Below are positions 5,722-25,513 of a stretch of DNA of 43,018 nucleotides, piece after piece. The stretch lies in NCBI RefSeq assembly GCF_000739595.1, contig NZ_BBJP01000032.1, forward strand, positions 1-43,018, given 5' to 3'. The notes beneath the pieces are model-generated. The model had not been told where the DNA came from, made no database searches, and worked only from the letters and a program-made list of their open reading frames with translations. How positions within the stretch are numbered: the stretch's first letter is position 1; each line of letters opens with the position of its first letter. A program made the position numbers and the translations under genes. This DNA comes from Halorubrum halophilum (lineage in GTDB: Archaea; Halobacteriota; Halobacteria; Halobacteriales; Haloferacaceae).

Positions 5722-6540
5722 TTATTGTCCGCTCCATTCCGGATCGCGATCTTGGAAGAACGCGTCGATACCCTCATTCTTGTCCTCCGTGTCAAACAGC
5801 TGTGCGAACAGCTCCGCCTCGTACTCGATCCCAGAGCGGAGATCCATCTGCGACGCTGCTTTCACCGAGGTCTTCGCCATGCGGAGGGCGAGGGGGCTCT
5901 TTTGTGCTATCGATGTCGCGAGATCGGTCACGCGCTCATCGAACGTCTCGTCGTCATGGACTTCTTCAACGAGACCGATATCGACCGCCTCTTTCGCATC
6001 GATCAGTTCGCCGGAAAGGATCAGTTTCATGGCCTGACCCTCTCCGACGAGTCTCGGGAGCCGTTGCGTCCCGCCACCGCCGGGAATGATCCCGAGATTG
6101 ATCTCCGGCTGTCCGATCTTCGCTCTTTCGTGAGCGATCCGGATGTCACACGCCTGGATAAGCTCACAACCACCACCTAACGCGTGGCCGTTGATCCGTG
6201 CGATCACCGGCACAGAACAGTCCGCGACACGCTCGTACACCCGCGGTCGTTCGCTTACTTCCCGCTGTTCGATCGAGTTTCGCTCCCGGAGCTCGGTGAG
6301 GTCCGCGCCAGCGACAAACGCGTTGCCGTCGGGATCGCCGGTTACGACGACTGCTCGAACGTCGCTTTCTTCGACGGCGACCATCGTCGTTTTGAGTTCC
6401 TCTCGAAGCTGCGCGTTGAGTGCGTTTCTCGCATCCGGGCGAGAGAGTTCGATCGTCGCGACGTGTTCTGCACGCTCGCCGATCGAGATGGAAACGGTTT
6501 CACAATCGGCGACGGCCTCACTGAGCCCCATCCCGGCCAC
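5722..6540 (-). CDS. paaF: Enoyl-CoA hydratase (PaaF-like crotonase)
   Basis: A 272-residue crotonase. Crotonases of this type add water to 2,3-dehydroadipyl-CoA or other enoyl-CoAs. The oxyanion-hole segments AFVAGADLTEL and GHALGGGCE are present, and both catalytic glutamates are seen: Glu126 (GGGCELIQA) and Glu146 (GQPEINLGIIPGGGG), which indicates a true hydratase and separates it from the PaaG-like protein at 24752. The start lies 23 nt inside the preceding dehydrogenase gene, so the two are translationally coupled and form a bicistronic beta-oxidation unit. Met4 (6531) is another possible start. The exact substrate is inferred from context; general short-chain enoyl-CoA hydratase is the alternative. 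Confidence 0.85.
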   Translation of the reverse strand: MAGMGLSEAVADCETVSISIGERAEHVATIELSRPDARNALNAQLREELKTTMVAVEESDVRAVVVTGDPDGNAFVAGADLTELRERNSIEQREVSERPRVYERVADCSVPVIARINGHALGGGCELIQACDIRIAHERAKIGQPEINLGIIPGGGGTQRLPRLVGEGQAMKLILSGELIDAKEAVDIGLVEEVHDDETFDERVTDLATSIAQKSPLALRMAKTSVKAASQMDLRSGIEYEAELFAQLFDTEDKNEGIDAFFQDRDPEWSGQ

Positions 6541-7417
6541 CCCCGGAGCCGCTTACCCCCACGACTTCACCGTCGTCCCAGACGTAGAATCCCTCTCCCG
6601 TTTTCTTCCCGAGTTTCCCCGCACGGACCTTCCGTTTCAGAACCTGTGGCGGTCGGAAGCGTTCCCCCAGCTCTTCACGGAGGTACTCGAGGATATCCAG
6701 CCGCACATCCAGTCCGACGACATCACCGAGCTCTATCGGTCCCATCGGATGGTTATACCCAAGTTCCATCGCGGTGTCGATATTGCGGGGATCTGCAACG
6801 CCCTCCCCCACCATACGCATCGCCTCGACACCGAGTGCGACACCGAGCCGAGATGAGGCGAATCCCGGCGAGTCAGCGACTGTGACGGGGGTCTTCTGGA
6901 TTCCCTCCACGAAGTCCGTTGCCGTGTCGATCGTTTCCTCGGTCGTCTGTTCGGCAACGACGACTTCAACGAGGTCCATAATATGAACCGGGTTGAAAAA
7001 GTGGAGTCCGATCGCCCGCTCGGGTCGATCGAGTGCGTTCGCGATTTGGGTCAGCGACAGCGACGAGGTATTCGAAGCGATGAGGCAGTCAGGGTCGACG
7101 TGTTCTTCGACGTCGGTCACCGTGTCGTGCTTGATCGGCAGTTCCTCCGGAACGGCCTCAACCACGAGATCGGCCCCGGTGACCGCTTCGGGTAGCGAGA
7201 TCGTTCCGGTGATTCGGCTTCTGGCTGACTCGGCCTCAGAGGGCGTCAACTTGTCCCGTTCAACTCCTCCATCGAGATTCGATTCGATGGCGTCGAGTCC
7301 CGCTTCAACGATCTCGGTCTCAAGGTCACGCAGTCGGACGTCGTGACCTCCCATCGCCGACACCTGTGCGATACCGTGTCCCATCGTTCCTGCACCAAGT
7401 ATTGCGACCTGCATCAT
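6518..7417 (-). CDS. paaH: 3-hydroxyacyl-CoA dehydrogenase (PaaH-like)
   Basis: A 299-residue NAD-dependent dehydrogenase. The N-terminal Rossmann fold begins with VAILGAGTMGHGIAQ, and the catalytic His lies in LHFFNPVHIMDLVEVV. The C-terminal 3HCDH domain holds NHPMGPIELGDVVGLDV and ends KTGEGFYVW. Length matches single-domain enzymes (about 280-300 residues). In PAA degradation this step oxidises 3-hydroxyadipyl-CoA to 3-oxoadipyl-CoA. It is transcribed away from the thiolase at 7512 from a shared 94-bp spacer and overlaps the following hydratase by 23 nt. Specificity for hydroxyadipyl-CoA rather than hydroxybutyryl-CoA is inferred from the neighbours. Confidence 0.9.
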   Translation of the reverse strand: MMQVAILGAGTMGHGIAQVSAMGGHDVRLRDLETEIVEAGLDAIESNLDGGVERDKLTPSEAESARSRITGTISLPEAVTGADLVVEAVPEELPIKHDTVTDVEEHVDPDCLIASNTSSLSLTQIANALDRPERAIGLHFFNPVHIMDLVEVVVAEQTTEETIDTATDFVEGIQKTPVTVADSPGFASSRLGVALGVEAMRMVGEGVADPRNIDTAMELGYNHPMGPIELGDVVGLDVRLDILEYLREELGERFRPPQVLKRKVRAGKLGKKTGEGFYVWDDGEVVGVSGSGGGRDGAQ

Positions 7418-7511
7418 TCGTCATGACCACGCGCAGACTCAAAAGGGTTTTCAGCCACCGGCTGCCCAACCGGTGATTTAATTACAGATACCTCGTAATC
7501 GCAGCGTGCTA
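7418..7511. promoter_or_regulatory. Divergent paaH/paaJ promoter with inverted repeat
   Basis: The 94-bp spacer separates two divergent genes. It contains a perfect inverted repeat, CACCGG (7456-7461) and CCGGTG (7470-7475), immediately before an AT element TTTAATTA (7478-7485). That TATA-like element is about 28 nt from the ATG at 7512, which fits a leaderless thiolase transcript. The inverted repeat sits where an archaeal regulator would block or aid TFB/TBP binding; no regulator can be assigned. Confidence 0.5.
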
Positions 7512-8654
7512 ATGGGTGTCTCTAGACAGCAGGCCGTTGTCATAGACGCCGTCCGAACTCCGATGGGGAAAAAAGACGGTGTGCTCGCGGAGGTGTTCCC
7601 GGAGGATCTTGTGACGGCGGTCCTCGACGAGCTAATCGATCGTACCGGCGTCGCCCCCGAAGAATGGGACGATTTCCGGCTCGGGTGTGCGAACCAGGAG
7701 GAAGAGCAGGGACGGAATCTCGCTCGACAGGTCTTACTCGCTGGGGGATATCCGGCGACGGTACCGGGGTCGACAACGACGCGGCTGTGCGGCTCATCGC
7801 TGACGACTCTCAACGATGCCGCCCGCGCGATAGAGGCCGGAGATGGCGAGGTCTACCCGGTGGCAGGCGTCGAACAGATGAGCCGTGTCCCATTCTCCGA
7901 CTGGCTCCACCCCGCGATTGAGTCGCGATACGATGCGGAACGGCTCCCGATGGGACAGACGGCCGAGACAATCGCCCGGAGACACGGTATCACTCGTGAC
8001 GCGCAGGACGAGTTCGCTCTCCGGTCGCACAATCGGGCGGCCGAGGCGGCACGATCCGGTCGGTTTGATAGCGAGATCGCTCCGGTGGAGACTCCCGCGG
8101 GAGCTGTTTCGACCGACGAGACGCCGCGCCCCGAGACGAGCCTCGATCAGTTGAACGACCTCCCGACGGTGTTCCGCGACGACGACGACGCGACGGTAAC
8201 CCCGGGGAATGCGTCTCCGTTAACGGACGGCGCGTCCGGGATGCTTGTTACGAGCGCTGAGTACGCGCGGAGGAACGACCTGGAGCCGATGGCCAAAATC
8301 ACGGCTCGGTCGGTCGAGGGGGTCGACCCGCGAGTGATGGGTCGAGGACCGATCCCCGCGACACGCACAGCGCTTGACGACGCGGGGCTCGATATCGACG
8401 ACATCGATCTGGTCGAGCTAAACGAGGCCTTCGCCGCACAGAGCGTTCACTGTCGGACCGAACTCGGGATCCCTGACGAGAAGCTGAACGTGAACGGCGG
8501 GGCGATCGCGTTGGGCCATCCCCTCGGCTGTTCGGGCGCACGGATATCCACGACACTCCTTCACGAACTCCGGCGGCGCGACGCCACTCGTGGTCTCGCG
8601 ACGATGTGTGTCGGATTCGGTCAGGGCGTCGCAACCGTGTTCGAACGGGCGTAA
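7512..8654 (+). CDS. paaJ: Acyl-CoA thiolase (PaaJ-like)
   Basis: A 380-residue degradative thiolase. Cys93 in [10 protein letters not shown] is the acylated nucleophile; [10 protein letters not shown] near residue 335 supplies the His and TMCVGFGQG the second Cys, where Phe replaces the more usual Gly of C-G-G-G-Q-G. In the PAA pathway such enzymes cleave 3-oxo-5,6-dehydrosuberyl-CoA and 3-oxoadipyl-CoA, giving acetyl-CoA and succinyl-CoA. The ATG at 7512 is preferred over the GTG six bases before it because the family starts close to [13 protein letters not shown] and the TATA spacing fits. It is divergent from paaH-paaF, completing a beta-oxidation set. Confidence 0.87.
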
Positions 8655-11360: not shown

Positions 11361-11554
11361 ACAAGGACACATACCGGATGCCGAAAAATAGCTTTCCCTT
11401 GGTTCGTCCCTGCCGTACCCGCTTGTTGCCGCGGTGGTATCTACCCGTTGATGCGGTGGATAGTTGCGTATTCGCGGGTCTCGGTATGTGAACCGGGGGG
11501 CGTGCCGTAGCCATTCGCGGGTGCGATGCCGGGCCTCCGCGGACCGAGCATATC

Positions 11555-11594: not shown

Positions 11595-12881
11595 ATGGCA
11601 TTCCAGCCAGTAGAGACGGCGGACCGATCCGAGATCCGTGAACTGCAGAACGAACGTCTCCGAGAGACGGTTGAACACGCGTACGAAAATGTACCGTTCT
11701 ATCGAGAGCGATTCGACGAACTGGGCATCACTCCCGACGACATCAACGGTGTCGAAGACATCGAGAAGCTCCCGATGACCACCAAGGAGGATTTCCGCGA
11801 TGAGTATCCGGACGGTCTATTCGCGGTGGACGAAGACGAAGTAACGCGCATTCACGCGTCTTCGGGAACGACGGGGAAACCCAAAATCGTCGGGTACACC
11901 GAAGACGACCTCGACGTGTGGAGTGACGTTGTCGCGCGCTCTCTCAAGGCGTCGGGCGTCGAGCCGGGAGACACCGTCCAGAACGCCTACGGATACGGTC
12001 TCTTTACCGGTGGACTCGGACTTCACTACGGGGTCGAGAAGCTCGGGGCGACCGTCATCCCGATCGGAAGCGGAGGGACGCAGCGGCAGGTCGAACTGAT
12101 GACCGACCTTGAGAGCGACGCCCTCTCGTGTACCCCGTCGTATGCGCTCTACCTTGCAGAAACCGCGGAAGAGATGGGATACGATCCCCGGGAGCTCCCG
12201 ATCTCGACGATTATCTTCGGCGCGGAGCCCTGTACTGATGCGATGCGAGAAGAGATCGAAGAACGGCTCGACGTGAACGGCGTCGACATCTACGGCCTGT
12301 CTGAGATCATCGGTCCGGGCGTCTCGAACGAATGTCACGAGGCACAAGACGGGCTCCACCTGTGGGAAGACCACTTCTACCCGGAGGTCGTCGACCCCGA
12401 CACGGGTGAGCCCGTCGAGAAGGGCGAGGAAGGCGAGCTCGTTCTGACGACCCTCAGTAAGGAAGCGTTGCCAGTGTTCCGATACCGCACGGGAGATCTG
12501 ACGAGCCTGACCTACGAGGAGTGTGACTGCGGGCGCACTATGGTCCGGATGGATAACGTCACGGGCCGGGCCGACAATCTCCTCATTGTTCGAGGGATCA
12601 ACTTTTACCCGAGTGAGGTTGAGGACGTGGTCCTGGACATCGACGGTGTCGCGCCGCACTACCGGATCGACCTCAGAGAGGAGAACAATCTCGATGTGAT
12701 GGAACTCATAATCGAAAAGAAACAGGAGTTCGACGGAGACGAGTCGGAGCTGTACGACACCGTCATGACGCGGCTGTCGAACGTCCTCTCGTTCACGCCG
12801 GACAAACTCACGCTCGTCGACTCGGGCGGAATTGAGCGAACGGAGGTGGGGAAGGTCCAGCGGGTGTTCGATCAGCGCTGA
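11595..12881 (+). CDS. paaK: Phenylacetate-CoA ligase
   Basis: A 428-residue adenylate-forming enzyme that joins phenylacetate and CoA with ATP, the first step of aerobic PAA degradation. The P-loop-like motif ASSGTTGKPKIVGYT, the aromatic-pocket stretch NAYGYGLFTGGLG, the YGLSEIIGPG motif and the C-terminal RADNLLIVRGINFYPSEVE segment are all diagnostic of PaaK and match its length of about 430 residues. The ATG at 11595 is chosen over the GTG at 11589 because MAFQPVE is the likely beginning and it fits the promoter. It is divergent from the thiolase/DUF35 pair and convergent with paaI. Confidence 0.93.
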   Translation: MAFQPVETADRSEIRELQNERLRETVEHAYENVPFYRERFDELGITPDDINGVEDIEKLPMTTKEDFRDEYPDGLFAVDEDEVTRIHASSGTTGKPKIVGYTEDDLDVWSDVVARSLKASGVEPGDTVQNAYGYGLFTGGLGLHYGVEKLGATVIPIGSGGTQRQVELMTDLESDALSCTPSYALYLAETAEEMGYDPRELPISTIIFGAEPCTDAMREEIEERLDVNGVDIYGLSEIIGPGVSNECHEAQDGLHLWEDHFYPEVVDPDTGEPVEKGEEGELVLTTLSKEALPVFRYRTGDLTSLTYEECDCGRTMVRMDNVTGRADNLLIVRGINFYPSEVEDVVLDIDGVAPHYRIDLREENNLDVMELIIEKKQEFDGDESELYDTVMTRLSNVLSFTPDKLTLVDSGGIERTEVGKVQRVFDQR

Positions 12882-12947: not shown

Positions 12948-13343
12948 TCACGGCCGATATACGCGACCGCGGAACGTCGCGACCTGATCGCCGTCGCCGT
13001 TCGTCACGGTGACCTCATACTCGCCGGTCCCGTCCGTCAGGTGCGTCTCTTCTGCGGTCGCAAGGAGCGTCTCACCGACATCGACAGCGGCGAGGTACGA
13101 AATATTCGATTCGAGCCCGACCGCCGCGTCACCGTGTGAGTTCGACGCCGCAGCAAACGCGGCATCGGCCAACGAGTAGATCGCTCCGCCGTGGAGCGTG
13201 CCGTGGAAGTTCAGCAGCTCGTCGGTGACCGTCAACTCAGCCTGGGCAGTGCCAACATCGATATCGACGAAGGCGATATCGAGTAACTCACAGAAGGGGT
13301 CAGAGTTGATCTGTTCTCGTAGATCTGTGGGTACGTCACTCAT
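12948..13343 (-). CDS. paaI: PaaI-type hotdog thioesterase
   Basis: A 131-residue hotdog-fold protein with the PaaI signature NFHGTLHGGAIYSLADAAF, in which the Asp/Glu and HGG elements form the acyl-CoA hydrolysis site. PaaI releases CoA from dead-end ring-hydroxylated phenylacetyl-CoAs and so rescues CoA when the pathway stalls. The start MSDVPTDL at 13343 is preferred to the in-frame codon three residues upstream. It is transcribed toward paaK and divergently from the MaoC gene, with about 100 bp between the two starts. A general acyl-CoA thioesterase role is the alternative. Confidence 0.85.
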   Translation of the reverse strand: MSDVPTDLREQINSDPFCELLDIAFVDIDVGTAQAELTVTDELLNFHGTLHGGAIYSLADAAFAAASNSHGDAAVGLESNISYLAAVDVGETLLATAEETHLTDGTGEYEVTVTNGDGDQVATFRGRVYRP

Positions 13344-13410
13344 CCGGTCCAACGGTGTGTGACGCGGAATAAATACGTACCGCTGTACTGACGGCTGCTG
13401 CTGCCGGGAG

Positions 13411-13446: not shown

Positions 13447-13914
13447 ATGGCTTACAGCTACGAACCTCACTACTTCGAGGACTTCGAGCCGGGCAAGGAG
13501 TTTTTGAGCGTTGGACGCACCGTCACGGAGGCGGATTTTGTGGTCCATTCCGCTCTCAGCGGTGATTGGACGGAACTGCACACGAACCGCGAGTACGCGT
13601 CCGAACAGCAGTTCGGAGAGCGGATTGCTCACGGGCCGATGACGTTCGTCCACGCAACGGGGTTCGTGTACCGGACCGGGGTTCTGGAACGGACCGCCAT
13701 CGCCTTCCTCGGCATGAACTACATGGATCTTCCGAACCCAGTGCATATCGGTGATACGCTCCAGTTGGAGATGGTTGTCGATAGTAGAAAAGATATCAGC
13801 CGAGACGACGCCGGGCTTGTGGTCTTAGACACACACATGGAAAAGCAAGACGGGACGACCGTCTTTGAGGGCGATATGAAGTTCATGATCAAGCGGGCAG
13901 AAAGCAACGATTAA
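13447..13914 (+). CDS. MaoC-like hydratase (split PaaZ hydratase part)
   Basis: A 155-residue hotdog protein of the MaoC/(R)-hydratase family. The hydratase motif is present as GDWTELHTNREYA with Asp40 and His45, followed by GERIAHGPMTF. In bacterial PaaZ, a C-terminal MaoC-like domain hydrolyses the oxepin-CoA ring and is fused to an aldehyde dehydrogenase; here the aldehyde dehydrogenase is the next gene, 28 bp downstream. I infer that this is the free-standing oxepin-CoA hydrolase. The start at 13447 is preferred over the upstream in-frame codon because MAYSYEPHYFEDF fits the family and the promoter. A general enoyl-CoA hydratase is the alternative. Confidence 0.78.
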   Translation: MAYSYEPHYFEDFEPGKEFLSVGRTVTEADFVVHSALSGDWTELHTNREYASEQQFGERIAHGPMTFVHATGFVYRTGVLERTAIAFLGMNYMDLPNPVHIGDTLQLEMVVDSRKDISRDDAGLVVLDTHMEKQDGTTVFEGDMKFMIKRAESND

Positions 13915-13942
13915 GGCAGACCGCACCCGTTTTTTCGATACG

Positions 13943-15394
13943 ATGGAGTACTCCGGTCCAACAGACTTGTTTATCGACGGCGAGTGGTGCAAGTCAACGA
14001 ACGGCGAGACGATCACGACCGAAGATCCAGCGACCGAAGCCGCCTATGCGACGGTACAGAAGGCTGGAGCGGCGGATGTTGATACCGCCGTCGAGGCGGC
14101 GACGGCTGCCGTTTCTCGGGGGTCCGCGTGGCGCGAGACCGATCTCGGAACCCGGCGCGAAATGCTTCACGGGATGGCAGACGCTATCGAGGAGATGAAA
14201 GACGAGATCGCGCTCGTCGAGTCATACGACAACGGGAAGACCCCGTTTGAGGCGGGGCTCGAGATCGACATGGTGATCGACACCTTCCGACATTACGCTG
14301 GGACGGTGGACAAACTGCGTGGAGAACAGATCCCCGTCTCCGGCAGTCGGCTGAACTACACCCGGCAAGAACCGGTCGGTGTGACTGCCCACATCGCCCC
14401 GTGGAACTACCCGTTCCAGCTCGCGGGGCGTGGGATCGCTCCTGCCCTCGCCACGGGGAATTCGGTTGTGTTGAAGCCGTCGAGTACGACGCCGCTGTCG
14501 GCCCTCTACTACGCGAAGGCAGCCGACGCGGCGGATCTCCCAGATGGGGTGTTCAACGTCATTCCCGGGTCCGGCTCCGACGCTGGGAGCGCGCTTGCCG
14601 GTCACGCCGACGTGGACCACGTCACCTTTACCGGGAGTACCGACGTCGGAAAGACGATCCAGCGTGACGCGGCGGATGCCGTCGCCGATGTGACCCTCGA
14701 ACTTGGCGGAAAGGGGCCGGCGATCGTCTTCCCGGATGCTGACCTCGATGCCGCCGCACGCGGCGTCCAGTACGGGATATTCATGAACGCCGGCCAGATG
14801 TGCTGGGCGAACTCGCGGCTCGTCGTCCACGAGGATGTCCACGACGAGATGGTTCAGCGAATGACCGAGATCGCGGAGAAGATCCCGCTCGGCGGCGGCA
14901 TCGATGACGACGGGCAGATGGGCCCGGTTGTTAGCGAGTCGCACCAGCAGGACATCCTTGAGTATATCGAGACTGGACGGGAAGAAGGCGCCACCGTCGC
15001 TGCTGGCGGCGGTGTTCCGGACGACCTCGAATCGGGATACTTCGTCGAGCCGACGGTGCTTACCGACGTCGAAAACAGCATGACGGTCGCTCGCGAGGAG
15101 ATATTCGGGCCAGTTTTATCGGTCATCGAGGTGAGCGACGAATCGGAGGCCCTCTCCGTGGCCAATGACTCACCGTTCGGACTTACTTCGTGCGTGTGGA
15201 CGAGTGACCTGTCTCGAGCGCACCGGTTGGCGGACAACCTCGAATACGGTATGGTGATGGTCAACGAGACGCCGAACACGTGGCCTCAGGTTCCGTTCGG
15301 CGGTACGAAGGCCAGCGGACACGGCGCGGCACAGGGCGAAGAAGCGCTCCGAGCGTACACCGAAGTGAAGAACGTTCACGTCAACCTCGACTGA
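13943..15394 (+). CDS. Aldehyde dehydrogenase (split PaaZ dehydrogenase part)
   Basis: A 483-residue NAD(P)-dependent aldehyde dehydrogenase. The cofactor segment APWNYPFQL and GSTDVGK, the general base Glu253 (TLELGGKGPA) and the nucleophile Cys287 (NAGQMCWANSR) are all present, and the length is normal. It follows the MaoC gene by 28 bp in what looks like an operon. In the PAA pathway the ring-opened semialdehyde must be oxidised at once or it cyclises to a dead-end product; in bacteria the fused PaaZ channels it. This enzyme is the best candidate here. Sequence alone places it near betaine-aldehyde-type dehydrogenases, so the substrate is inferred from context. Confidence 0.82.
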   Translation: MEYSGPTDLFIDGEWCKSTNGETITTEDPATEAAYATVQKAGAADVDTAVEAATAAVSRGSAWRETDLGTRREMLHGMADAIEEMKDEIALVESYDNGKTPFEAGLEIDMVIDTFRHYAGTVDKLRGEQIPVSGSRLNYTRQEPVGVTAHIAPWNYPFQLAGRGIAPALATGNSVVLKPSSTTPLSALYYAKAADAADLPDGVFNVIPGSGSDAGSALAGHADVDHVTFTGSTDVGKTIQRDAADAVADVTLELGGKGPAIVFPDADLDAAARGVQYGIFMNAGQMCWANSRLVVHEDVHDEMVQRMTEIAEKIPLGGGIDDDGQMGPVVSESHQQDILEYIETGREEGATVAAGGGVPDDLESGYFVEPTVLTDVENSMTVAREEIFGPVLSVIEVSDESEALSVANDSPFGLTSCVWTSDLSRAHRLADNLEYGMVMVNETPNTWPQVPFGGTKASGHGAAQGEEALRAYTEVKNVHVNLD

Positions 15395-15551
15395 GCGAAA
15401 TCCGGTCTGCGCTTTTTGTCGTCGTTGACCTTCGCTGCCATGTGGAGTGTTGCTGTTCATGTTGGTATTAAATAATATTCATGTGTTCAGTACGTGCATG
15501 GTACAAAGATTTAATATCCCTTGGTTGAGATCCTATATCGGATCATCTGCC
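15395..15551 (+). promoter_or_regulatory. Promoter region of the Liv-type transporter operon
   Basis: The spacer between the aldehyde dehydrogenase and the binding protein has two AT-rich elements, ATTAAATAATATT (around 15467-15479) and TTTAATATCC (around 15511-15520). The second gives a start site near 15540, just before the chosen ATG at 15552. Which one is used cannot be told from sequence. Confidence 0.45.
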
Positions 15552-16802
15552 ATGATGAATAACGATAGATCACCCGCTGTGGAGAGTGGAGTGTGTAACC
15601 GTCGAACGTTCTTGTCAGCGACCGGTGCAGCTGTATCGGTGGGTCTCGCCGGGTGTTCCGGTAACTCGGGGAGCGGCGGCAGCGAGTCAGCGACTATCGG
15701 CATTCTTAATCCGATGTCGGGGGACTACAGTACGCTCGGACCGTCCCAGCGTGCGGGAGCGGAGTACGCGATACAGGAGATCAACAACAGCGACGACTAC
15801 AGCTACGAACTCGAACCGGTCTACTACGACACCGAAACCACAGCGAGTGCCGGATCGCAGGCGGCACAGCAGGCGATTCAAGAAGACGGCGCCGACTATC
15901 TCGTTGGAGCGATCTCCAGTTCAGTCGCTCTCGGCCTCAACGAACTCGCTGCATCCGAGGAAACGGTGTATTTCGCTGGTGGGGCCGCGGTCCCGATTAC
16001 GGGGGAACAGTGCAACGAATGGGTGTTCCGCTTCGAGACGAACACCGCACAGGTCGCGGAAGCCATCTCAGGATACACGGTAGAGAATATCGGATCGAAC
16101 GTCTGGTTCCACTACGCGGACTACGCGTACGGGACGTCAGTGTACAACCGCACCAGTATGCGCATGGAGGAGGCGAGCGCCGACTTCTCCGAAATCGGAC
16201 AGACGTCATCGAGCCTCGGAGCGTCGAACTACGAATCCTACATTACCCAGATCGGCAACTCAGACGCGAACGTTGCCGTCTTGGGCATGACCGGTGGTGA
16301 CCTCGTCACGTTCGTCAACCAGGCTGCGGATCGAGGACTGACCGAAGATGTGGCGCTGGTTGCCCCGACGATGGCGTACAAAAGCACCCGTGCGGGGACT
16401 GGGTCGAACAGCGTCGGCACGTTCGGGGGCGTCCGCTACGATCCGTCTATCGACATCGGGGACAACCAGGCGTTCGTTGACGGCTTCCAGTCGGAGTACG
16501 ACGAGCTCCCGGGAAGTTACGAACGAACGGGATACGGGTCAGTGCGACTCATCGCAAAGGGAATGGAACGGGCCGGAAGTACGGATCCGGCCGAGGTCAG
16601 AGACACCCTCGAAGGCGGTGAGTTCACCACGGTCCTGGGAGACATCACACTGCGCGAGACCGACCGTCAGGCGACCAACCCGGCGTGGATCGCCGAGTTG
16701 ACTGAAGGGGACGGTGACAGCGCCGATGTCGACATCCTCTCGAAAACCGAGGGGGCTGATGCGCTTCGTCCAGCAAGCGAGTTTGGCTGCGAGCTGAATT
16801 AG
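15552..16802 (+). CDS. ABC transporter substrate-binding lipoprotein (LivK-like)
   Basis: A 416-residue type I periplasmic-binding-protein fold of the branched-chain amino acid/aromatic acid family. The N-terminus is a Tat lipoprotein signal: twin Arg 17-18 in NRRTFLSATG and a lipobox LAGC with Cys35, followed by a Gly/Ser-rich linker. This is the usual way haloarchaea anchor binding proteins outside the membrane. The mature part begins ATIGILNPMSGDYSTLGP. The start MMNNDRS at 15552 is used because the longer frame adds an unlikely N-terminus. It is the first gene of a four-gene importer operon placed between paaK/ALDH and paaABCD, suggesting phenylacetate or a related aromatic acid as ligand; this is inference. 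Confidence 0.88.
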   Translation: MMNNDRSPAVESGVCNRRTFLSATGAAVSVGLAGCSGNSGSGGSESATIGILNPMSGDYSTLGPSQRAGAEYAIQEINNSDDYSYELEPVYYDTETTASAGSQAAQQAIQEDGADYLVGAISSSVALGLNELAASEETVYFAGGAAVPITGEQCNEWVFRFETNTAQVAEAISGYTVENIGSNVWFHYADYAYGTSVYNRTSMRMEEASADFSEIGQTSSSLGASNYESYITQIGNSDANVAVLGMTGGDLVTFVNQAADRGLTEDVALVAPTMAYKSTRAGTGSNSVGTFGGVRYDPSIDIGDNQAFVDGFQSEYDELPGSYERTGYGSVRLIAKGMERAGSTDPAEVRDTLEGGEFTTVLGDITLRETDRQATNPAWIAELTEGDGDSADVDILSKTEGADALRPASEFGCELN

Positions 16803-16811
16803 CGTAGATCC

Positions 16812-18833
16812 ATGTCCACCGTAGTCAACTTGGCGGAGCAACTCATCAACGGCATATCACTCGGGATGGTGTATGTGCTGTTAGCGGCCGGACTGTCCAT
16901 TATTTTCGGCGTAATGGACGTGATCAATTTCTCTCACGGAGAGCTGTTCGCGTTGGGCGCATACTTTGCGCTTAGCATCGTTGATCCCCTCGGTTCGGGG
17001 GTCGGATTCTGGGTCGCATTGATTCTCTCGCCGCTGCTGGTCGGAATCGTGGGTGTCGGTATCGAGCGGTTCACGATCCGCCCGTTGTACGGTCGGAACC
17101 CGCTTTACCATATTCTGCTCACCTTCGGGCTTGTTCTCATCATTAACGATCTGATCACGCTGGGGTGGGGACCGGAACAACAGAACCTGGGCGTTCCGGA
17201 ATACCTCACGACGCCGATCGCCCTCGGCGGTATCGAGGTGTCGGTGTACAACTACTTCATGATCGGCTTCACCGCCCTGCTCGCGGCCGGAATCTGGCTG
17301 TTCTTGACGAAGTCGAAGTACGGGATGATTATCAGGGCGGGATCAGAGGACCGACAGATGGTCAGAAACGTCGGGATCGATATTGACCGGTACTACACGC
17401 TTATCTTCGGGATCGGCGCCGCCCTTGCGGCTGTCGGCGGTGTCATTCTCGGCGGGTATCAGAGCGTAAGCCCCGGCATGGGTAGCAGTGTCATCGTCCC
17501 TGCGTTTATTATCGTCGTCCTCGGCGGCCTTGGGAGCTTCCGCGGCGCGGTGTTCGGAGGCCTGTTGGTCGGTATCGTTCGGACGCTGACACGGACCTAC
17601 GCCGGTTCCGAACTCTTCGAACTTCAGGGCACCATCGTCGCTGTTCCAGACTTCGAGGGAGTGACGATCTTCCTCTTAATGATTGGCGTCCTGCTCTACA
17701 AGCCACAGGGGCTGTTCGGAAGCTCTGAACACGGCGGTGGCGCCGAGAGTACACTTCTCACCGGCGTCGAGTCTCAGGTCTTCTCGGACGGCACTCGACG
17801 GACGCTCGGCCTCGCGTTTCTTGTGTTGCTAGCGCTCGCCCCGCTCGTGTTCCTTCTCACTGGAAACACGTACTACATTACGCTGCTCAATCAGATGTTT
17901 ATTTTCGCTATTTTCGCGTTGAGTCTTGACGTTGTCATGGGATACACGGGCCTCGTCCCACTCGGACACACCATGTTCTACGGAGTGGGCGCGTACGCCG
18001 CAGCTTTGGTTATGATTCACCTGACCTCCTCGTTCCTTATTGCGCTTGCTGTCGCGATTCTCGTCTGTGCAATCCTCGCGTGGATCGTCGGGAGCCTCTC
18101 GATCCGCGTGTCCGGGATTTACTTTGCGATGATCACACTCGCGTTCGCCGAGCTGTTATACAACATGGTGTACAAATTCGATTTCACCGGTGGCAGCGAC
18201 GGACTGGTCGGTTGGGAGCCGCTCGTCGGTATCGCCGGTGTTGGCATCGAGCTTGGTTCCATTTCGCTTCCGCTCGGTCTGATCGAAATAACACCAGCGA
18301 CTGCCTTCTACTACATCGCATTCGGTCTCGCACTCCTCTCGTTGTACTTCGCGACACGGGTGATGAACGCACCGTTCGGTAGCGTTCTCGCTTCCATCGG
18401 AGAAACTGAGGAGCGGACTAAATTCCTGGGCTACGATGTGAGAAAGTACAAGCGACGCGTGTTCGTCATCAGTGGCGGGATGGCCGGTATGGCGGGCGGT
18501 CTCCTGGCCGTGAATCCCAGCACATTCATCGTCTCACCTGACCAGACGCTGGCATGGATCCATTCGGGAGAGGTCATCGTGATGACGCTGGTGGGCGGGA
18601 TGGGAACGCTTGTCGGACCGATGCTCGGTGCTGGCTTCTTCGTCGGTGCCGAGGATATCCTCTCGTCGTACACCGAACAGTGGCGGCTGGTCATCGGAAC
18701 CGTCTTCGTGTTGTTTGTGCTGTTCGTCCCCCGAGGGCTCATCTCGCTCCCCTCGGTCATCGCTGACGTGTACAGCGAGTCGCGGTTCGATAACTCGATC
18801 GCGACCAAGAAAGACATGGAGGAGTCCAAATGA
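16812..18833 (+). CDS. Fused LivH-LivM ABC permease
   Basis: A 673-residue membrane protein that joins both Liv permeases in one chain. Residues about 1-300 match LivH (INFSHGELFALGAYFAL near the start, GGLGSFRGAVFGGL near residue 240), and residues about 329-660 match LivM (ALSLDVVMGYTGLVPLGHTMFYGVGAYAA; GGMGTLVGPMLGAGFF near the end). A hydrophilic linker with HGGGAES lies between. In most bacteria these are separate genes. It forms the membrane channel for the ligand delivered by the upstream lipoprotein. It begins 10 bp after that gene and its stop overlaps the livG start (ATGA). Confidence 0.9.
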   Translation: MSTVVNLAEQLINGISLGMVYVLLAAGLSIIFGVMDVINFSHGELFALGAYFALSIVDPLGSGVGFWVALILSPLLVGIVGVGIERFTIRPLYGRNPLYHILLTFGLVLIINDLITLGWGPEQQNLGVPEYLTTPIALGGIEVSVYNYFMIGFTALLAAGIWLFLTKSKYGMIIRAGSEDRQMVRNVGIDIDRYYTLIFGIGAALAAVGGVILGGYQSVSPGMGSSVIVPAFIIVVLGGLGSFRGAVFGGLLVGIVRTLTRTYAGSELFELQGTIVAVPDFEGVTIFLLMIGVLLYKPQGLFGSSEHGGGAESTLLTGVESQVFSDGTRRTLGLAFLVLLALAPLVFLLTGNTYYITLLNQMFIFAIFALSLDVVMGYTGLVPLGHTMFYGVGAYAAALVMIHLTSSFLIALAVAILVCAILAWIVGSLSIRVSGIYFAMITLAFAELLYNMVYKFDFTGGSDGLVGWEPLVGIAGVGIELGSISLPLGLIEITPATAFYYIAFGLALLSLYFATRVMNAPFGSVLASIGETEERTKFLGYDVRKYKRRVFVISGGMAGMAGGLLAVNPSTFIVSPDQTLAWIHSGEVIVMTLVGGMGTLVGPMLGAGFFVGAEDILSSYTEQWRLVIGTVFVLFVLFVPRGLISLPSVIADVYSESRFDNSIATKKDMEESK

Positions 18834-19597
18834 CCGAGACCGTATTAGAGATTCGCGACCTCACGAAGAAGTTCGGACAGTTAACCGCAACGAACCACAT
18901 CGATCTCGATGTTGAGAGCGGTGAGTTCCGGAGTGTGATCGGTCCCAATGGTGCCGGAAAAACGACGCTATTCAACCTCATTTCCGGCGCACTCCGCCCG
19001 ACGAGCGGCCGAATTGAGTTCGCCGGCGAACCCATCGCCGACCTCCCGCCGCACGAACGCGTGCGCAGAGGTGTCAGCCGCTCGTTCCAGATAACGAATA
19101 TATTTAGCGGGCTCACGGTCCACGAGAACGTGCGACTCGCCGTACAGTCGAAACACTACGCCGGGCTTGACAGGACCGAAGCGCTCTTTCGTGACACCGG
19201 TTCGTTCGACACAATGAATGATCGGACAGACGGGATCCTGCGCCGAATTGGTCTCGCAGATCGGGCATCGGAGATGGCTGGGACACTCGCGTACGGTGAC
19301 CAGCGCCGCCTCGAAATCGGATTAGTTCTCGCGACGGATCCACAGCTTGTGCTTCTTGATGAGCCTACTGCCGGCATGAGCAGCGAAGAAACAAGAGAGA
19401 CGCTGGAACTCGTCAATGAGGTACTCGCGGACCAATCTATCATGCTCATCGAACACGACATTGACCTGATTATGGACGTGTCGGATCGCATCACAGTCTT
19501 GACGCGTGGTGAAGTGCTCGCGAGCGGAACTCCGGAGGAGATATCCACGAATGACGACGTACAGGACGCGTACTTAGGTGGTGGGCGCGATGAGTGA
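18830..19597 (+). CDS. ABC transporter ATPase (LivG-like)
   Basis: A 255-residue ATPase that powers the importer. Walker A is GPNGAGKTT, the signature is the LivG-type LAYGDQRRLEI, Walker B with the catalytic Glu is LVLLDEPTAGMS, and the switch His is in MLIEHDIDLI. The segment after the Q-loop, ITNIFSGLTVHENV, is typical of LivG. The start overlaps the permease stop by 4 nt, and the gene overlaps livF by 8 nt, so expression is coupled. Confidence 0.92.
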   Translation: MTETVLEIRDLTKKFGQLTATNHIDLDVESGEFRSVIGPNGAGKTTLFNLISGALRPTSGRIEFAGEPIADLPPHERVRRGVSRSFQITNIFSGLTVHENVRLAVQSKHYAGLDRTEALFRDTGSFDTMNDRTDGILRRIGLADRASEMAGTLAYGDQRRLEIGLVLATDPQLVLLDEPTAGMSSEETRETLELVNEVLADQSIMLIEHDIDLIMDVSDRITVLTRGEVLASGTPEEISTNDDVQDAYLGGGRDE

Positions 19598-20312
19598 TCC
19601 GATCCTCAGCCTCCGTGATGTCCGTGCTGGGTATCAGATGACAGAGGTGCTAACTGGGGTCACGATGGACGTCGAACGGGGGTCTGTAGTCTCACTTGTC
19701 GGCCGAAACGGCGTCGGAAAGACAACGACTCTCAGATCAATCGTCGGAAACATCGTCCCGACCGCCGGAACGATCACGTTCGACGATCGGGACATCACGA
19801 CGCTCGACACCGAAGAGACGATTCGTACCGGAATCACCTTTGTTCCGGAAGAGCGCCGGATATTTCCCGGACTCACTGTTCGTGAAAACGTCAGAATGGG
19901 ACAGATAGGCGTCGACGCGACTGACGGGCCGTCCGTCGACGAAGTGATCGACATGTTTGAGAACTTAGCAGAGCGCGAAAATAGTCCGGGATCGGTGCTG
20001 TCCGGCGGAGAGCAACAGATGCTGGCGATAGCGCGTGCGATGGTCGCAGACCCGGACCTTCTCCTCCTTGACGAGCCCACGGAGGGACTTGCCCCATATA
20101 TCGTCAGACAAATCGAAGACGTGATCGCCACCCTCAACGATCGGGGAATAACCGTACTTGTCGTCGAACAGAATCTCCCGGTAGCACTAGATGTATCTGA
20201 TTACACATATATCCTCGAAAAAGGACATATTGTTCACGAGGGGCCTGCATCAGAAGTGAAAGACAACCAGGCAGTATTAGACAAACACCTCGGCATCACA
20301 GCCGGCGAGTAA
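19590..20312 (+). CDS. ABC transporter ATPase (LivF-like)
   Basis: The second ATPase, 240 residues from the ATG at 19590. Walker A is GRNGVGKTT, the signature LSGGEQQMLAIARAM, and Walker B LLLLDEPTEGLAP, all LivF-type; the switch region is LVVEQNLPVALD. The start within the end of livG (8-nt overlap) is chosen over the upstream in-frame codon because MSDPILSLRDV is the usual beginning. It ends the importer operon. Confidence 0.92.
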   Translation: MSDPILSLRDVRAGYQMTEVLTGVTMDVERGSVVSLVGRNGVGKTTTLRSIVGNIVPTAGTITFDDRDITTLDTEETIRTGITFVPEERRIFPGLTVRENVRMGQIGVDATDGPSVDEVIDMFENLAERENSPGSVLSGGEQQMLAIARAMVADPDLLLLDEPTEGLAPYIVRQIEDVIATLNDRGITVLVVEQNLPVALDVSDYTYILEKGHIVHEGPASEVKDNQAVLDKHLGITAGE

Positions 20313-21019: not shown

Positions 21020-21187
21020 CTATCCGAATTTCTTGAACTGCTGAAGGCAGTCGTTACAGTAGTGGATTGACTGACATCGGGAAGGGCCGCGTGGGTGTTT
21101 ACGCTCAGTGTCTGTCGACCCGCAGTAAGGGCATTCGGCACCAGTAGTCTCTCCACTCGTGGTAACGCTTGGATCGGGCTCGTTCAT
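21020..21187 (-). CDS. Stand-alone PaaD zinc ribbon
   Basis: A 55-residue protein with two CxxC pairs: CPYCGST and YCNDCLQQFKKFG, separated by KHPRGPSRCQSIH. This is the same layout as the C-terminal zinc ribbon of bacterial PaaD (CPxCGS ... G..C.S..C..C...F..F). The gene starts inside the stop codon of the DUF59 paaD gene (ATGA overlap), so it is translated with it. I infer that PaaD is split into two polypeptides here. PaaD is thought to help insert or mature the metal centre of the epoxidase. Confidence 0.8.
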   Translation of the reverse strand: MNEPDPSVTTSGETTGAECPYCGSTDTERKHPRGPSRCQSIHYCNDCLQQFKKFG

Positions 21188-21615
21188 TCGAAGCTCAGCC
21201 CGAACTCTCTGAGCGCTTCTTTCCCTGCCTCAGTCACGAGGTCTACGGTCCAGTCCGGTGACCAGACAAGCCGCACCTCGGCGTCGGTGATACCGTCGAC
21301 GCTGGCGACCGTCTGTTCGACGTCGTCTAATAGGATCTCCCGTGCGGGACATCCGCTGTACGTCAGCGTCATGTCGATCGTCGCGTTCCCGTCACTGAGC
21401 TCGACGCCATAGATGAGTCCAAGATCGACGATGCTCACCGGCATCTCCGGGTCCTCGATCTCGTAGAGTGCCGACCACACGTCTCGTTCCAACCCTTCGG
21501 CATCGTCACCGGTCGCCGGGACGTCCCCATCTGCTCGGTCACGCGTGTCGTACTCAGTGTGCGAACAGGGGGCTGCGTCTTCAGTCGAGCGTGGCCGATC
21601 GTAATCGCTACTCAT
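21184..21615 (-). CDS. paaD: PaaD, DUF59/MIP18 part
   Basis: A 143-residue protein with a disordered acidic N-terminus (1-40) and a DUF59 domain (about 41-143). The signatures IEDPEMPVSIVDLGLIY and TLTYSGCPA are present; the Cys of SGCPA is the conserved residue of the family. PaaD belongs to the iron-cluster/metal-delivery MIP18 group and is needed for phenylacetyl-CoA epoxidase activity in bacteria. It lacks the C-terminal zinc ribbon found in bacterial PaaD; that part is the next gene. Its start overlaps the end of paaC by 8 nt. Confidence 0.88.
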   Translation of the reverse strand: MSSDYDRPRSTEDAAPCSHTEYDTRDRADGDVPATGDDAEGLERDVWSALYEIEDPEMPVSIVDLGLIYGVELSDGNATIDMTLTYSGCPAREILLDDVEQTVASVDGITDAEVRLVWSPDWTVDLVTEAGKEALREFGLSFE

Positions 21616-22441
21616 CTTCTGGGTCCATAATGACGGTGGCGCTGTCGCGGCCGAGATCGCGGTACTCCGAGGTCATCTCCTCATGGAGACTGTGCCACGC
21701 GTCAGTGTGCTCGTTGTCTCGCCCGATCGGGCTCGCGACATCAGCATCAGTCGGGACAGAGAACCCGAGTTCAGAGAGCGTATCGACGATGCGGTTTTCC
21801 CACTCCGTGCGCATCTCGTCGAGCGTCTGCGTCCTGATCCCGAGTTCGACGATGTCCGACTCAACGGCACCGACGGGCTCGAAGAGCGTCAAAGCGTATG
21901 GGTACAGTTCGTCGATCGCTTCCTGTGCACGTTCGCTGGCGTCCGCATCAGCTGCGAGCCGTTCGAGCCAGCTTCGCGCGTGCTCGACGTGGTACCCTTC
22001 CTCCCCCTGTGCGCGACTCGCTCGTTCACGAATAACTCGGTACGAGGAGTCTTCTACTGCCGCCAACCTGATATCCTCAGCAACGTCGTAAAGGTAGGCC
22101 CGGACGATGGCGTTGGCCCACTGGCCCTCTTCGAAGGGAAGTTCGACGAACGTTGCGTGTTGGAAATCAGATGGGTCACTTTCCCAGAGCAGGTCCTCTT
22201 CGGAATATCCCAGTTGTTGAATGGCGTCGTACCACAGTCGGGCGTGCCCGAGTTCGTCCTGGGCATTATTCGAGATCGCAAGGTCAGATTCGAGCGTCGG
22301 TGAGCGAACCTGCCAGAACGTGTACCGTTCAGCTTGGACGTACTCGTCGTCGGCCAAGCGGAATAGCTGGGCCTCAACCGCCTTACGCTCTCGTTCAGAG
22401 AGATCCTCTGGCCGTCCGAGATCAGCATCGGTTGCGGACAT
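21608..22441 (-). CDS. paaC: Phenylacetyl-CoA epoxidase subunit PaaC
   Basis: A 277-residue ferritin-like protein, the structural partner of PaaA in the epoxidase. The segment ISNNAQDELGHARLWYDAI and the later REERASRAQ-like helix with GEEGYHVEHARSW match PaaC, and PaaC-PaaA pairs form the core of the complex. Its length is near the bacterial 248 residues with added acidic ends. It starts within the paaB stop (TGATG) and overlaps paaD by 8 nt, so subunit levels are coupled. Confidence 0.92.
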   Translation of the reverse strand: MSATDADLGRPEDLSERERKAVEAQLFRLADDEYVQAERYTFWQVRSPTLESDLAISNNAQDELGHARLWYDAIQQLGYSEEDLLWESDPSDFQHATFVELPFEEGQWANAIVRAYLYDVAEDIRLAAVEDSSYRVIRERASRAQGEEGYHVEHARSWLERLAADADASERAQEAIDELYPYALTLFEPVGAVESDIVELGIRTQTLDEMRTEWENRIVDTLSELGFSVPTDADVASPIGRDNEHTDAWHSLHEEMTSEYRDLGRDSATVIMDPEDE

Positions 22442-22965
22442 CAGGCACCACCTCGACGTCGCTTTTCCGCTTCGATCTGCTCGTTCTCAGAGGCCTCGAC
22501 TTCCTCCGCGGCAGGATCGACATTGTATGTCTGTGCGAACCGGTAGGACTTATCGGTCGTTCCGCCAAACGCGACATCGTCCGCGGTGATCTCGCCAATT
22601 CGGTCCGTCTCGACGACCCAAAGCGGGCGCTCGTCTTCGGCGAATTCGTCGACGGCGTCACGCCGGGCGACAGCCGCATTCGGGGCTTCGATATCACCGA
22701 CGTGAGTGTGGTATCCTCTCGAGTCTGGACGGAACACCCGCCACTCGACGAAGTCGCCTTCCGCGTTGACGTCGCTCGTGTCCTCATCGGGGACAACACT
22801 CTCGATATCGTCTTGCGGCGCGACCCAAAGCGCGTTCGTCGGCTTACGGCGGCCGTGTTGAATCACAGCGAACTGCTTCGCCATTTCGCGGTCGGGCGCG
22901 TGCACGTCACGGCAGTAGACGAACTCTGCGTTCGGACTTCGTTGTCTGAATACTTCCCAGATCAT
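22441..22965 (-). CDS. paaB: PaaB with two tandem modules
   Basis: A 174-residue protein, about twice the length of bacterial PaaB (about 95). Residues 1-54 (IWEVFRQRSPNAEFVYC ... NALWVAPQDDI) and 72-126 (VEWRVFRPDSRGYHTHVG ... PLWVVETDRI) are two copies of the same fold, and the tail SYRFAQTYNV matches the C-terminal end of bacterial PaaB. The second module plus tail therefore equals a normal PaaB and the first is an extra copy. PaaB bridges PaaAC units. The start MIWEVF at 22965, 2 bp after the paaA stop, is chosen; the upstream in-frame codon would overlap paaA. Confidence 0.87.
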   Translation of the reverse strand: MIWEVFRQRSPNAEFVYCRDVHAPDREMAKQFAVIQHGRRKPTNALWVAPQDDIESVVPDEDTSDVNAEGDFVEWRVFRPDSRGYHTHVGDIEAPNAAVARRDAVDEFAEDERPLWVVETDRIGEITADDVAFGGTTDKSYRFAQTYNVDPAAEEVEASENEQIEAEKRRRGGA

Positions 22966-22967
22966 GG

Positions 22968-23906
22968 TCAGTCTGCCGCCTGTGCACTCCGATTGGGGGT
23001 GCTCGTCGGGTTGTCCATCATACTGCGGACCCATTGCACGGCTTCTTGGGCCTGCGCGCGTCCGGTGATCTGTTCAATGCTTCCGTCGTACTCGTTCTGC
23101 GAGACCGTGAAGAACTCGTCCCAGTCGAGATCGTCTTCAACGACGTCGTAGGTCCCGTCGTCGCGCTCGCGGATCCGGGGCTCATCGGGGATCTCCAGAC
23201 CGTAGTGCTTCGCTTTCTCCATGTACCGATTCAGGAAGGAGTTCCTGAGTTCGTCGTTCGAAGACACCTTGAGACCAACTTCTGCCGCGAAGTCGTGGTG
23301 GGTGCTCTGGTCGTCGGTCGGACCGAAGAATTGGAGGATCCGTGGCCACCACTCTTCGAAGGCATCCTGCACCATCTCTTGTTCGCGCTTCGAACCAGAC
23401 ATCAGTTCTCGCAGGATGGACTCACCGTGTTTAACGTGCATTCCCTCCTCGAAGCAGATCTTGTCCATCGCGTGGGCGTACGGCTCCCAACTGGATTTCT
23501 TGAGCGTGGCCTGCCGACGCATTGCCGCACCGTCGACAAAGAACGCGATCATCGGCGTCTCGGCGTAGCTTTCCATCGGGTAATGGAAGCAGTTGAGGAA
23601 CTTACCGTCGCCATTTGCGAGGTCGTCGAGCATCTCCTCGCGGGTTTTGATGCCGAGCGACTCGGCTGCACGGTACAGCATCTGCCCGTGGCCGATCTCG
23701 TCCTGCGTTTTGGCACTGAAGGCCATCTTCCGCTCGAGGCTGGGGGCGCGGCGAATGAACGGACGCTCTAGATACGCGCCCATAATCTCACTGTTCGCGT
23801 GGAACTCCAACATGCGCGTTGCAGCTTTCCGATACTCGACCGGCATATCATCTTTCGGCGTAAACCTCCGCGGTTCCGCCTGCGCTTTCACTTCTTCAAC
23901 GATCAT
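22968..23906 (-). CDS. paaA: Phenylacetyl-CoA epoxidase catalytic subunit PaaA
   Basis: A 312-residue di-iron protein that epoxidises the ring of phenylacetyl-CoA using O2. The iron-ligand helices are visible: TQDEIGHGQM and EEGMHVKHGE. The rest, including KMAFSAKTQ and EEWWPRILQFFGP, follows PaaA over its full length. It is first in a tightly packed paaABCD-zinc-ribbon operon and is divergent from the HTH-10 regulator across 87 bp. No PaaE-type ferredoxin/flavin reductase follows, so electrons must come from a protein encoded elsewhere. Confidence 0.94.
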   Translation of the reverse strand: MIVEEVKAQAEPRRFTPKDDMPVEYRKAATRMLEFHANSEIMGAYLERPFIRRAPSLERKMAFSAKTQDEIGHGQMLYRAAESLGIKTREEMLDDLANGDGKFLNCFHYPMESYAETPMIAFFVDGAAMRRQATLKKSSWEPYAHAMDKICFEEGMHVKHGESILRELMSGSKREQEMVQDAFEEWWPRILQFFGPTDDQSTHHDFAAEVGLKVSSNDELRNSFLNRYMEKAKHYGLEIPDEPRIRERDDGTYDVVEDDLDWDEFFTVSQNEYDGSIEQITGRAQAQEAVQWVRSMMDNPTSTPNRSAQAAD

Positions 23907-24751: not shown

Positions 24752-25513
24752 ATGCACGTCGACGATAGTGACGTCCGGACTATCACATTCAATCGCCCAC
24801 AGTCATACAACGCGATGACCGGCGAGGTCGCCGCCGATCTTGTTGATGCCATGGGTGGCCTCGACCCATCCACGCACGATGCCGTGGTCATCACTGGCGA
24901 GGGTGATGCATTTAGCTCCGGGGGCGACATCGACGCGATGGCTGAGCGCGACGAGACCGCACTTGAGTCGTACGATCGGGTCCGCGAAACGCTTGGTCGT
25001 GTCGCCGAATCGATTCTTGACGCTCCCGTTCCAGTCGTCGCGCGCGTGAACGGCGATGCCGTTGGTGCGGGCATGGCAATCGCGATGTTATCAGACTTCG
25101 CGTACGCCACTGAATCTGCCCGATTCGGCGCATCATTTATAAATGTCGGCCTCATTCCGGACGCCGGTAGCACCGCACTGCTTCCCCGAGTTGTCGGTCT
25201 GCGAAAAGCGAAAGACCTCGCATTTACCGGTCGGTTGATCTCCGCGTCGAAGGCGGCGGAGTGGGACATCATCAACGAGGCCGTTCCAGACGACGATATC
25301 GACGAGCGGGTTGAGACGCTGCTTTCGACGCTCGCGGATCGCCCGACTGAGACGATCGCGTTAACCAAACGAGCGATCCATGACAACCTCGGACAGCCAT
25401 GGCAAGACGGACTCGAACGAGAGGCACACTTCCAGACGCTTGCGTACGGGACAGATGCGCACACGGAAGGCGTCGAGGCGTTTCTGGAAAACCGGTCACC
25501 CGAGTTCGAGTGA
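24752..25513 (+). CDS. paaG: Epoxyphenylacetyl-CoA isomerase (PaaG-like)
   Basis: A 253-residue crotonase. The oxyanion-hole segments AFSSGGDIDAM and GDAVGAGMAIAML are present, but the first hydratase glutamate is missing and the second position is Asp137 (VGLIPDAGS), as in PaaG. That single acid is what PaaG uses to convert ring-1,2-epoxyphenylacetyl-CoA to oxepin-CoA and to shift double bonds later. It lies 110 bp after the HTH-10 gene and opposite the epoxidase operon. Its residue pattern separates it from the true hydratase at 5722. Confidence 0.87.
   Translation: MHVDDSDVRTITFNRPQSYNAMTGEVAADLVDAMGGLDPSTHDAVVITGEGDAFSSGGDIDAMAERDETALESYDRVRETLGRVAESILDAPVPVVARVNGDAVGAGMAIAMLSDFAYATESARFGASFINVGLIPDAGSTALLPRVVGLRKAKDLAFTGRLISASKAAEWDIINEAVPDDDIDERVETLLSTLADRPTETIALTKRAIHDNLGQPWQDGLEREAHFQTLAYGTDAHTEGVEAFLENRSPEFE

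Follow-up and report, generated by a model that had tools for sequence, protein, structure and literature searches.

Organization of the locus

The window (the whole stretch of 43,018 nucleotides of Halorubrum halophilum DNA that was analyzed) contains a paa cluster, in which a gene for a stand-alone MaoC protein is followed on the same strand by a gene for an aldehyde dehydrogenase (ALDH) (Table 1). The MaoC reading frame starts with the ATG at 13447, stops at 13914, encodes 155 residues, and matches PF01575 with 71.1 bits (Pfam cut-off 27). A longer version starting with a GTG at 13411 is unlikely, since the homologues begin at the same methionine as the shorter one. The ALDH matches PF00171 with 572 bits. 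In E. coli PaaZ, the ALDH domain is N-terminal and the hydratase domain C-terminal, so that the order of the two genes is the reverse of that of the fused domains. The original prediction, according to which a 155-residue MaoC protein adjoins an ALDH in this reverse order, was borne out by the coordinates, the Pfam matches, and the 28-bp gap. As to its proposal that the two genes belong to one operon, the shared strand and the short gap make cotranscription plausible, but a run of six T's sits in the gap. Among 17 relatives, 16 had gaps of 137 to 1649 bp, and the nearest (L170) had one of 28 bp. Haloparvum sedimenti, whose MaoC and ALDH are 94% and 89% identical to those of the window, shares the 28-bp gap of the window.

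Table 1. Features of the window, with their positions and the evidence for their assignment
Feature	Position	Strand	Evidence or remark
PaaF-like enoyl-CoA hydratase	5722..6540	-	42% identity to E. coli PaaF, both Glu positions retained
PaaH-like 3-hydroxyacyl-CoA dehydrogenase	6518..7417	-	sequence and synteny with annotated relatives
PaaJ-like thiolase	7506..8654	+	sequence and synteny with annotated relatives
PaaK, phenylacetate-CoA ligase	11595..12881	+	NF041878, 836 bits, above cut-off
PaaI-like hotdog thioesterase, divergent from MaoC	12948..13352	-	TIGR02286, 111.8 bits (cut-off 118.9)
Stand-alone MaoC / (R)-specific hydratase, 155 aa, candidate oxepin-CoA hydrolase	13447..13914	+	catalytic Asp40 and His45; oxyanion residue Gly63
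Intergenic gap MaoC-ALDH, 28 bp, with T6 run	13915..13942	+	
Aldehyde dehydrogenase (ALDH), 483 aa	13943..15394	+	function inferred from position
Liv-type ABC transporter genes (substrate-binding protein, permease, two ATPases)	15447..20312	+	
55-aa zinc ribbon, resembling the C-terminal end of E. coli PaaD	21020..21187	-	relatives annotated 'PaaE'
PaaD, N-terminal part	21184..21615	-	NF041868, 214.5 bits, above cut-off
PaaC	21608..22441	-	TIGR02158, 160.9 bits, above cut-off
PaaB	22441..23034	-	NF041867, 165 bits, two matched stretches
PaaA, epoxidase subunit	22968..23906	-	TIGR02156, 285.2 bits, above cut-off
PaaG-like isomerase	24752..25513	+	35% identity to E. coli PaaG, IPD motif retained

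The MaoC-ALDH pair is flanked on one side by paaK and the gene of the PaaI-like thioesterase, and on the other by the Liv-type transporter genes, possibly serving the uptake of aromatic acids; paaDCBA lies about 6 kb downstream. The IPD motif of the PaaG-like protein contains the catalytic Asp of PaaG, and the two glutamates retained in the PaaF-like protein are the catalytic pair of PaaF. Both PaaF and PaaG thus have candidates in the window that carry the residues expected, which leaves ring opening as the one step with no other gene to account for it. NCBI models already exist for the haloarchaeal PaaB, PaaD, and PaaK, and the haloarchaeal MaoC gene is annotated there only as 'MaoC/PaaZ C-terminal domain-containing protein'.

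Other features of the cluster were also noted. The zinc ribbon encoded directly after paaD can be aligned with the C terminus of PaaD from E. coli (11 of 38 residues identical, pairwise E value 4e-6), which suggests that PaaD may be split in Halobacteria as well. PaaB is 197 residues long, and the two stretches matched by the PaaB models look alike by eye (WEVFR and WRVFR), while a BLAST comparison of the halves gave no match. Between the PaaJ-like gene and paaK (8758-11372, minus strand) are genes for an HMG-CoA-synthase-like/zinc-ribbon protein and a thiolase, which are found in Haloarcula, Haloferax, and Halorubrum too. No PaaE reductase was detected in the source genome above the cut-off of 420.8 bits (best score 54.9), nor did any protein of this genome exceed the cut-off for PaaY, a candidate rescue enzyme (best score 23 bits).

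Search for a fused PaaZ and for other ring-opening enzymes

The genome from which the window (contig C72) derives has a size of 3.68 Mb and is 99.6% complete. No fused PaaZ was found in it, the best score with TIGR02278 being 131.9 bits for a cut-off of 562.8, and none of the 194 genomes of Halobacteria searched yielded one at E ≤ 1e-60. A fused paaZ elsewhere in the genome, the result named beforehand as one that would speak against a split, is therefore absent, and the claim that the PaaZ functions lie on separate genes here is supported. We also looked in the source genome for the crotonase-type alternative oxepin-CoA hydrolase (NF046063) and found none above 300 bits (best score 159). With the model of the itaconyl-CoA hydratase RipB/Ich (NF038241; cut-off 340 bits), the MaoC protein scored 56.5 bits.

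Two further searches concerned neighboring genes. An amidohydrolase-type gene adjoins that of PaaG in L047 (2712-3587) and also in Haloarcula sinaiiensis, under the annotation 'amidohydrolase family protein'. Considered as a possible ring opener, this family was seen in 30 of 100 loci but has no copy in the window. No other oxidase was shared as a candidate by the ALDH-free clusters among these 100 loci, in which genes were called with a simple program that assigned part of the strands wrongly.

Co-occurrence of MaoC and PaaA in Halobacteria

The 194 genomes were searched with the MaoC and the PaaA of the window. MaoC matches at E ≤ 1e-20 were present in 101 of them, with a clear gap separating matches of at least 59% identity (95 genomes) from those of no more than 39%; 6 genomes had distant matches alone and did not count as carriers. 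PaaA was found in 93 genomes, the copy of G104 being just 40% identical. Both proteins occurred together in 92 genomes, MaoC alone in 3 (G150, G182, and G184), PaaA alone in 1 (G104), and neither in 98. The corresponding Fisher p value (1e-50 for the 194 genomes) is uncorrected for kinship and is inflated by shared ancestry. The original prediction had proposed to look for co-occurrence of both genes with paa genes in other archaea; for MaoC and PaaA this was indeed observed, with 4 discordant genomes.

MaoC and PaaA were less than 20 kb apart in 77 of the 92 genomes, farther apart on the same contig in 11, and on different contigs in 4. Since they are thus separated by more than 20 kb or by a contig border in 15 genomes, linkage alone does not explain their co-occurrence. 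In the window's own genus, 2 of the genomes listed contained both proteins and the 20 others neither. The haloarchaeal PaaK exceeded its cut-off in 76 of the 194 genomes, all of them PaaA carriers. With 92 of the 93 PaaA genomes against 76 for PaaK, MaoC is the tighter marker of PaaA.

When the MaoC proteins were placed in a tree, the G150 and G182 sequences clustered with second copies from G116, G166, and G181 (5 loci, 100% support). The MaoC genes of this clade (at about 9.6-10.4 kb in L130, L131, L133, L139, and L142) adjoin genes whose sequences we read as methylmalonyl-CoA mutase, B12-binding, MeaB-like, or acyl-CoA dehydrogenase genes. Because of these neighbors, the second clade looks like a paralogue with a different job. 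The MaoC of G184 is a fragment (residues 15-90). Natribaculum luteum is a case similar to G104: its divergent PaaA set is accompanied by neither paaK nor MaoC in the stretch covered. A second, divergent PaaA/B/C/D-like set was also noted in Haloterrigena turkmenica (pHTUR01, 436000-450000; L252), accompanied by UbiD decarboxylases, a 2Fe-2S protein, and an acyl-CoA synthetase; it may encode an epoxidase acting on a different aromatic acid.

Distribution of the ALDH

The ALDH carries Asn155, Glu253, and Cys287, which we take to be the functional residues of this family. It falls in the general ALDH group, its best PDB matches being of the betaine/ALDH2 type, and shares only 23% identity over 284 residues with Azospirillum PaaN. 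Matches at E ≤ 1e-150 were obtained in 47 of the 194 genomes, the best candidates (up to 8 per genome) being scored. An ALDH with at least 74% identity was present in 16 genomes, all of which had MaoC and PaaA, and in each case its gene lay downstream of that of MaoC, on the same strand and within 1.7 kb. Because of this regularity, the MaoC-ALDH arrangement is not due to chance. The 7 genomes with an ALDH of 69-71% identity also all contained MaoC and PaaA. At 63-68% identity the association was gone (11 of 24 genomes), and the wider ALDH family was for this reason rejected as a marker of the pathway.

Counted from the other side, a close ALDH orthologue was found in 16 of the 92 genomes with MaoC and PaaA and was missing in 76; if the 69-71% group is included, the numbers are 23 and 69. 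All of 15 genomes chosen among the MaoC and PaaA carriers (mostly with few contigs) encoded several full-length ALDHs, but in just 2 of them (G136 and G157) was such a gene located less than 10 kb from MaoC or PaaA. The scarcity of close orthologues and the mostly unclustered position of the other ALDHs indicate that the ALDH is an exchangeable partner, not a fixed one.

Two observations concern clusters of related species. In Halorubrum ezzemoulense (L150, 14805-20232), genes for a primary-amine oxidase and a second ALDH are found between the MaoC-ALDH pair and paaD, perhaps providing an entry route for phenylethylamine. In Haloferax alexandrinus, the paa genes, the ALDH of the cluster (cds143), and the 'ich-Y' gene cds135 have been reported to rise under silver, cds135 at 0.5 mM only (PMC10694973). 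Judging from the gene order in H. mediterranei, cds135 would correspond to the MaoC described here.

Active-site residues, fold, and descent of MaoC

The MaoC of the window was aligned with those of 96 loci, 5 of them from the paralogue clade. Asp40, Glu43, His45, Asn47, and Gly63 were invariant in the 97 rows, while His62 was conserved in 93 and replaced by Gln in 4. Asp40, His45, and Gly63 align with Asp561, His566, and Gly584 of PaaZ, so that the catalytic set of the PaaZ hydratase domain is complete. The AlphaFold model had a pLDDT of 79.8, with values of 51-55 near residues 41-60, where the active-site loop is of low confidence. Its best structural matches were the MaoC proteins 1q6w and 4ffu, and the hydratase domain of PaaZ (6jql) was also a good match (Foldseek E value 4e-10, VIA Z 15.6).

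The basic residues proposed to let the CoA end pivot between the two sites of E. coli PaaZ, which include K69, R613, and K636 (PMC6739347), were not retained. In a pairwise alignment they corresponded to His76, Asp94, and Ser118, respectively. Asp94 was conserved in 93 of the 97 rows. Position 119 was Arg or Lys in 87 of them, and this basic residue may partly replace K636.

MaoC is 42-45% identical to some lone bacterial MaoC proteins and at most 37% identical to PaaZ domains. In the tree, the haloarchaeal family formed one clade (100/100) and the PaaZ domains another (100/99), MaoC being nearer to the lone bacterial proteins. A joint clade of MaoC and the PaaZ domains was not rejected (AU p value 0.113), in a small and uneven sample with long branches and 12 lone MaoC rows that were mostly from plasmid records. 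The tree thus leans against an origin of MaoC by fission of PaaZ, but is compatible with it.

Proposed pathway and alternatives

We consider it probable that MaoC and ALDH perform the two jobs of PaaZ as two proteins, MaoC being the fixed part and ALDH the exchangeable one. PaaK would form phenylacetyl-CoA, which PaaABC(D) would epoxidize and the PaaG-like protein convert to oxepin-CoA. MaoC would then open the ring, Asp40 and His45 activating water and Gly63 holding the thioester enolate, as proposed for PaaZ. The semialdehyde would in this organism most likely be taken over by the neighboring ALDH. MaoC would be the pathway-specific component throughout Halobacteria, whereas ALDHs would have been recruited separately by different lineages or be drawn from elsewhere in the genome. 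Formation of the dead-end product with a seven-membered ring would be limited by the joint supply of MaoC and ALDH rather than by a conserved channel, and perhaps also by the adjacent PaaI-like thioesterase.

We infer that MaoC is the candidate oxepin-CoA hydrolase of haloarchaea from its genomic context, its co-occurrence with PaaA, the invariant Asp and His that it shares with PaaZ, and the absence of a fused PaaZ. Its fold, which matches the PaaZ hydratase domain, the key residues shared with the P. donghuensis ECH, and the response of the likely Haloferax counterpart to silver also agree with it. Several points count against this assignment. MaoC proteins often act as generic hydratases, and ECH-Aa, for one, prefers crotonyl-CoA to oxepin-CoA by a factor of about 1,000 (quoted in PMC9007349); the ECH of P. 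donghuensis is dispensable for growth on phenylacetate (PMC10454607). Further such points are the greater similarity of MaoC to some lone bacterial proteins than to PaaZ domains, Asp94 in place of R613, the Gln found instead of His62 in 4 rows, the rise of cds135 at 0.5 mM silver only, and the lack of a close ALDH orthologue in most genomes with MaoC and PaaA.

A more far-reaching version, which we put forward tentatively and hold to be possible rather than probable, is that Halobacteria recruited a stand-alone MaoC independently of PaaZ as a general oxepin-CoA hydrolase. Most lineages would have no dedicated or channeling ALDH, and the freely released semialdehyde would be scavenged by general ALDHs or converted in part to tropone-type products.

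The original prediction had also raised the possibility that the two proteins bind one another. They would in that case form a stable complex with direct hand-over of the semialdehyde as in fused PaaZ, which agrees with the constant position of the close ALDH orthologues directly downstream of MaoC and with the 28-bp gap of the window and of Haloparvum sedimenti. It is at odds with the unclustered ALDHs of most genomes with MaoC and PaaA and with the replacement of the PaaZ residues R613, K69, and K636 (PMC6739347); furthermore, the high internal salt should weaken electrostatic steering. Such a complex therefore seems unlikely to us. The scattered ALDH genes and the altered pivot residues speak in particular against a conserved PaaZ-like channel, which is unlikely as a general rule in Halobacteria since the ALDH is not a fixed partner; contact between MaoC and ALDH within the lineage of the window is compatible with the data and possible.

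It is also improbable that MaoC serves another step or substrate, for example as an (R)-hydratase of β-oxidation or an itaconyl-CoA hydratase, with ring opening left to a crotonase-type protein. In favor of this, proteins of the MaoC type are often generic, this MaoC scores 56.5 bits with the RipB/Ich model, its likely Haloferax counterpart is annotated as an itaconyl-CoA hydratase (PMC10694973), and a crotonase-type oxepin-CoA hydrolase has been proposed in Paraburkholderia (PMC9007349). Yet that score is far below the cut-off of 340, no crotonase of the genome reached the 300 bits of NF046063, and the co-occurrence of MaoC with PaaA is nearly exclusive. Very unlikely, finally, is that MaoC opens oxepin-CoA mainly to feed a tropone-type cyclic shunt, instead of or besides degradation: stand-alone ECH proteins such as TrlA and the P. 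donghuensis enzyme do lead to tropolones in Streptomyces and Pseudomonas (PMC7497051, PMC10454607) and many Halobacteria possess MaoC but no clustered ALDH; however, the window contains both an ALDH adjoining MaoC and lower pathway genes, and the 15 other Halobacteria searched all have several ALDHs elsewhere.

On the reading that we prefer, that of two separate proteins with MaoC as the fixed one, the present data bear on a point described as open, namely the identity of the stand-alone oxepin-CoA hydrolase in organisms without fused PaaZ (PMC9007349). Of the 93 genomes that encode PaaA among the 194 searched, 92 also have a member of the MaoC family, which makes this family a strong candidate for the enzyme that was lacking, and the question becomes testable in genetically tractable haloarchaea. 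The distribution of MaoC and ALDH also raises the question of whether the reactive aldehyde needs channeling at all.

Comparison with known systems

A 2026 survey of the pathway (PMC13186573) lists 32 cases from Halobacteria, each with just part of the epoxidase set, and calls the archaeal configurations incomplete; the stand-alone MaoC is not treated in the available parts of its text. A search of open-licence papers on haloarchaea, to the extent that their text was accessible, disclosed no assignment of this MaoC to oxepin-CoA hydrolysis.

The MaoC-ALDH pair has two folds and the pathway context in common with E. coli PaaZ. The hydratase part is 37% identical over 111 residues, with Asp, His, and Gly conserved, and the ALDH part 26% identical over 387 residues, with Cys, Glu, and Asn conserved. 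PaaZ (TIGR02278, 6jql) is however a fused protein, whereas here there are two proteins, encoded in the reverse order, which score far below the PaaZ cut-off and have an acidic residue at the position of R613.

The statement that the two activities are fused in bacteria holds for E. coli PaaZ but is not general, since ECH and ALDH are separate enzymes in many bacteria (PMC7497051, PMC9007349, PMC9493321), among them the PacL-type bacteria described by Price et al. (PMC9007349). In these (Azoarcus/Aromatoleum evansii), as in the window, the ALDH is encoded apart from the hydratase within the paa cluster (PMC7497051, PMC9007349). Their hydrolase is located elsewhere and, according to the part of PMC9007349 available, not securely identified, while in Halobacteria a candidate hydratase lies in the cluster and is tied to PaaA. 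The ECH of P. donghuensis HYS and TrlA of Streptomyces are single-domain (R)-hydratases like MaoC, and the key residues of the former (Asp39, His44, and Gly62; PMC10454607) correspond to residues 40, 45, and 63 of MaoC. They differ in serving tropolone synthesis; ech is not part of the paa cluster, and the trl cluster is described as having no ALDH (PMC7497051, PMC10454607). The Paraburkholderia hydrolase (NF046063) is likewise proposed to hydrolyze oxepin-CoA where fused PaaZ is lacking from the genome, but has a crotonase fold, unrelated to that of MaoC (PMC9007349). Separation of the PaaZ functions is already known in bacteria; what appears to be new here is that a candidate can be assigned, with good support, in a further lineage.
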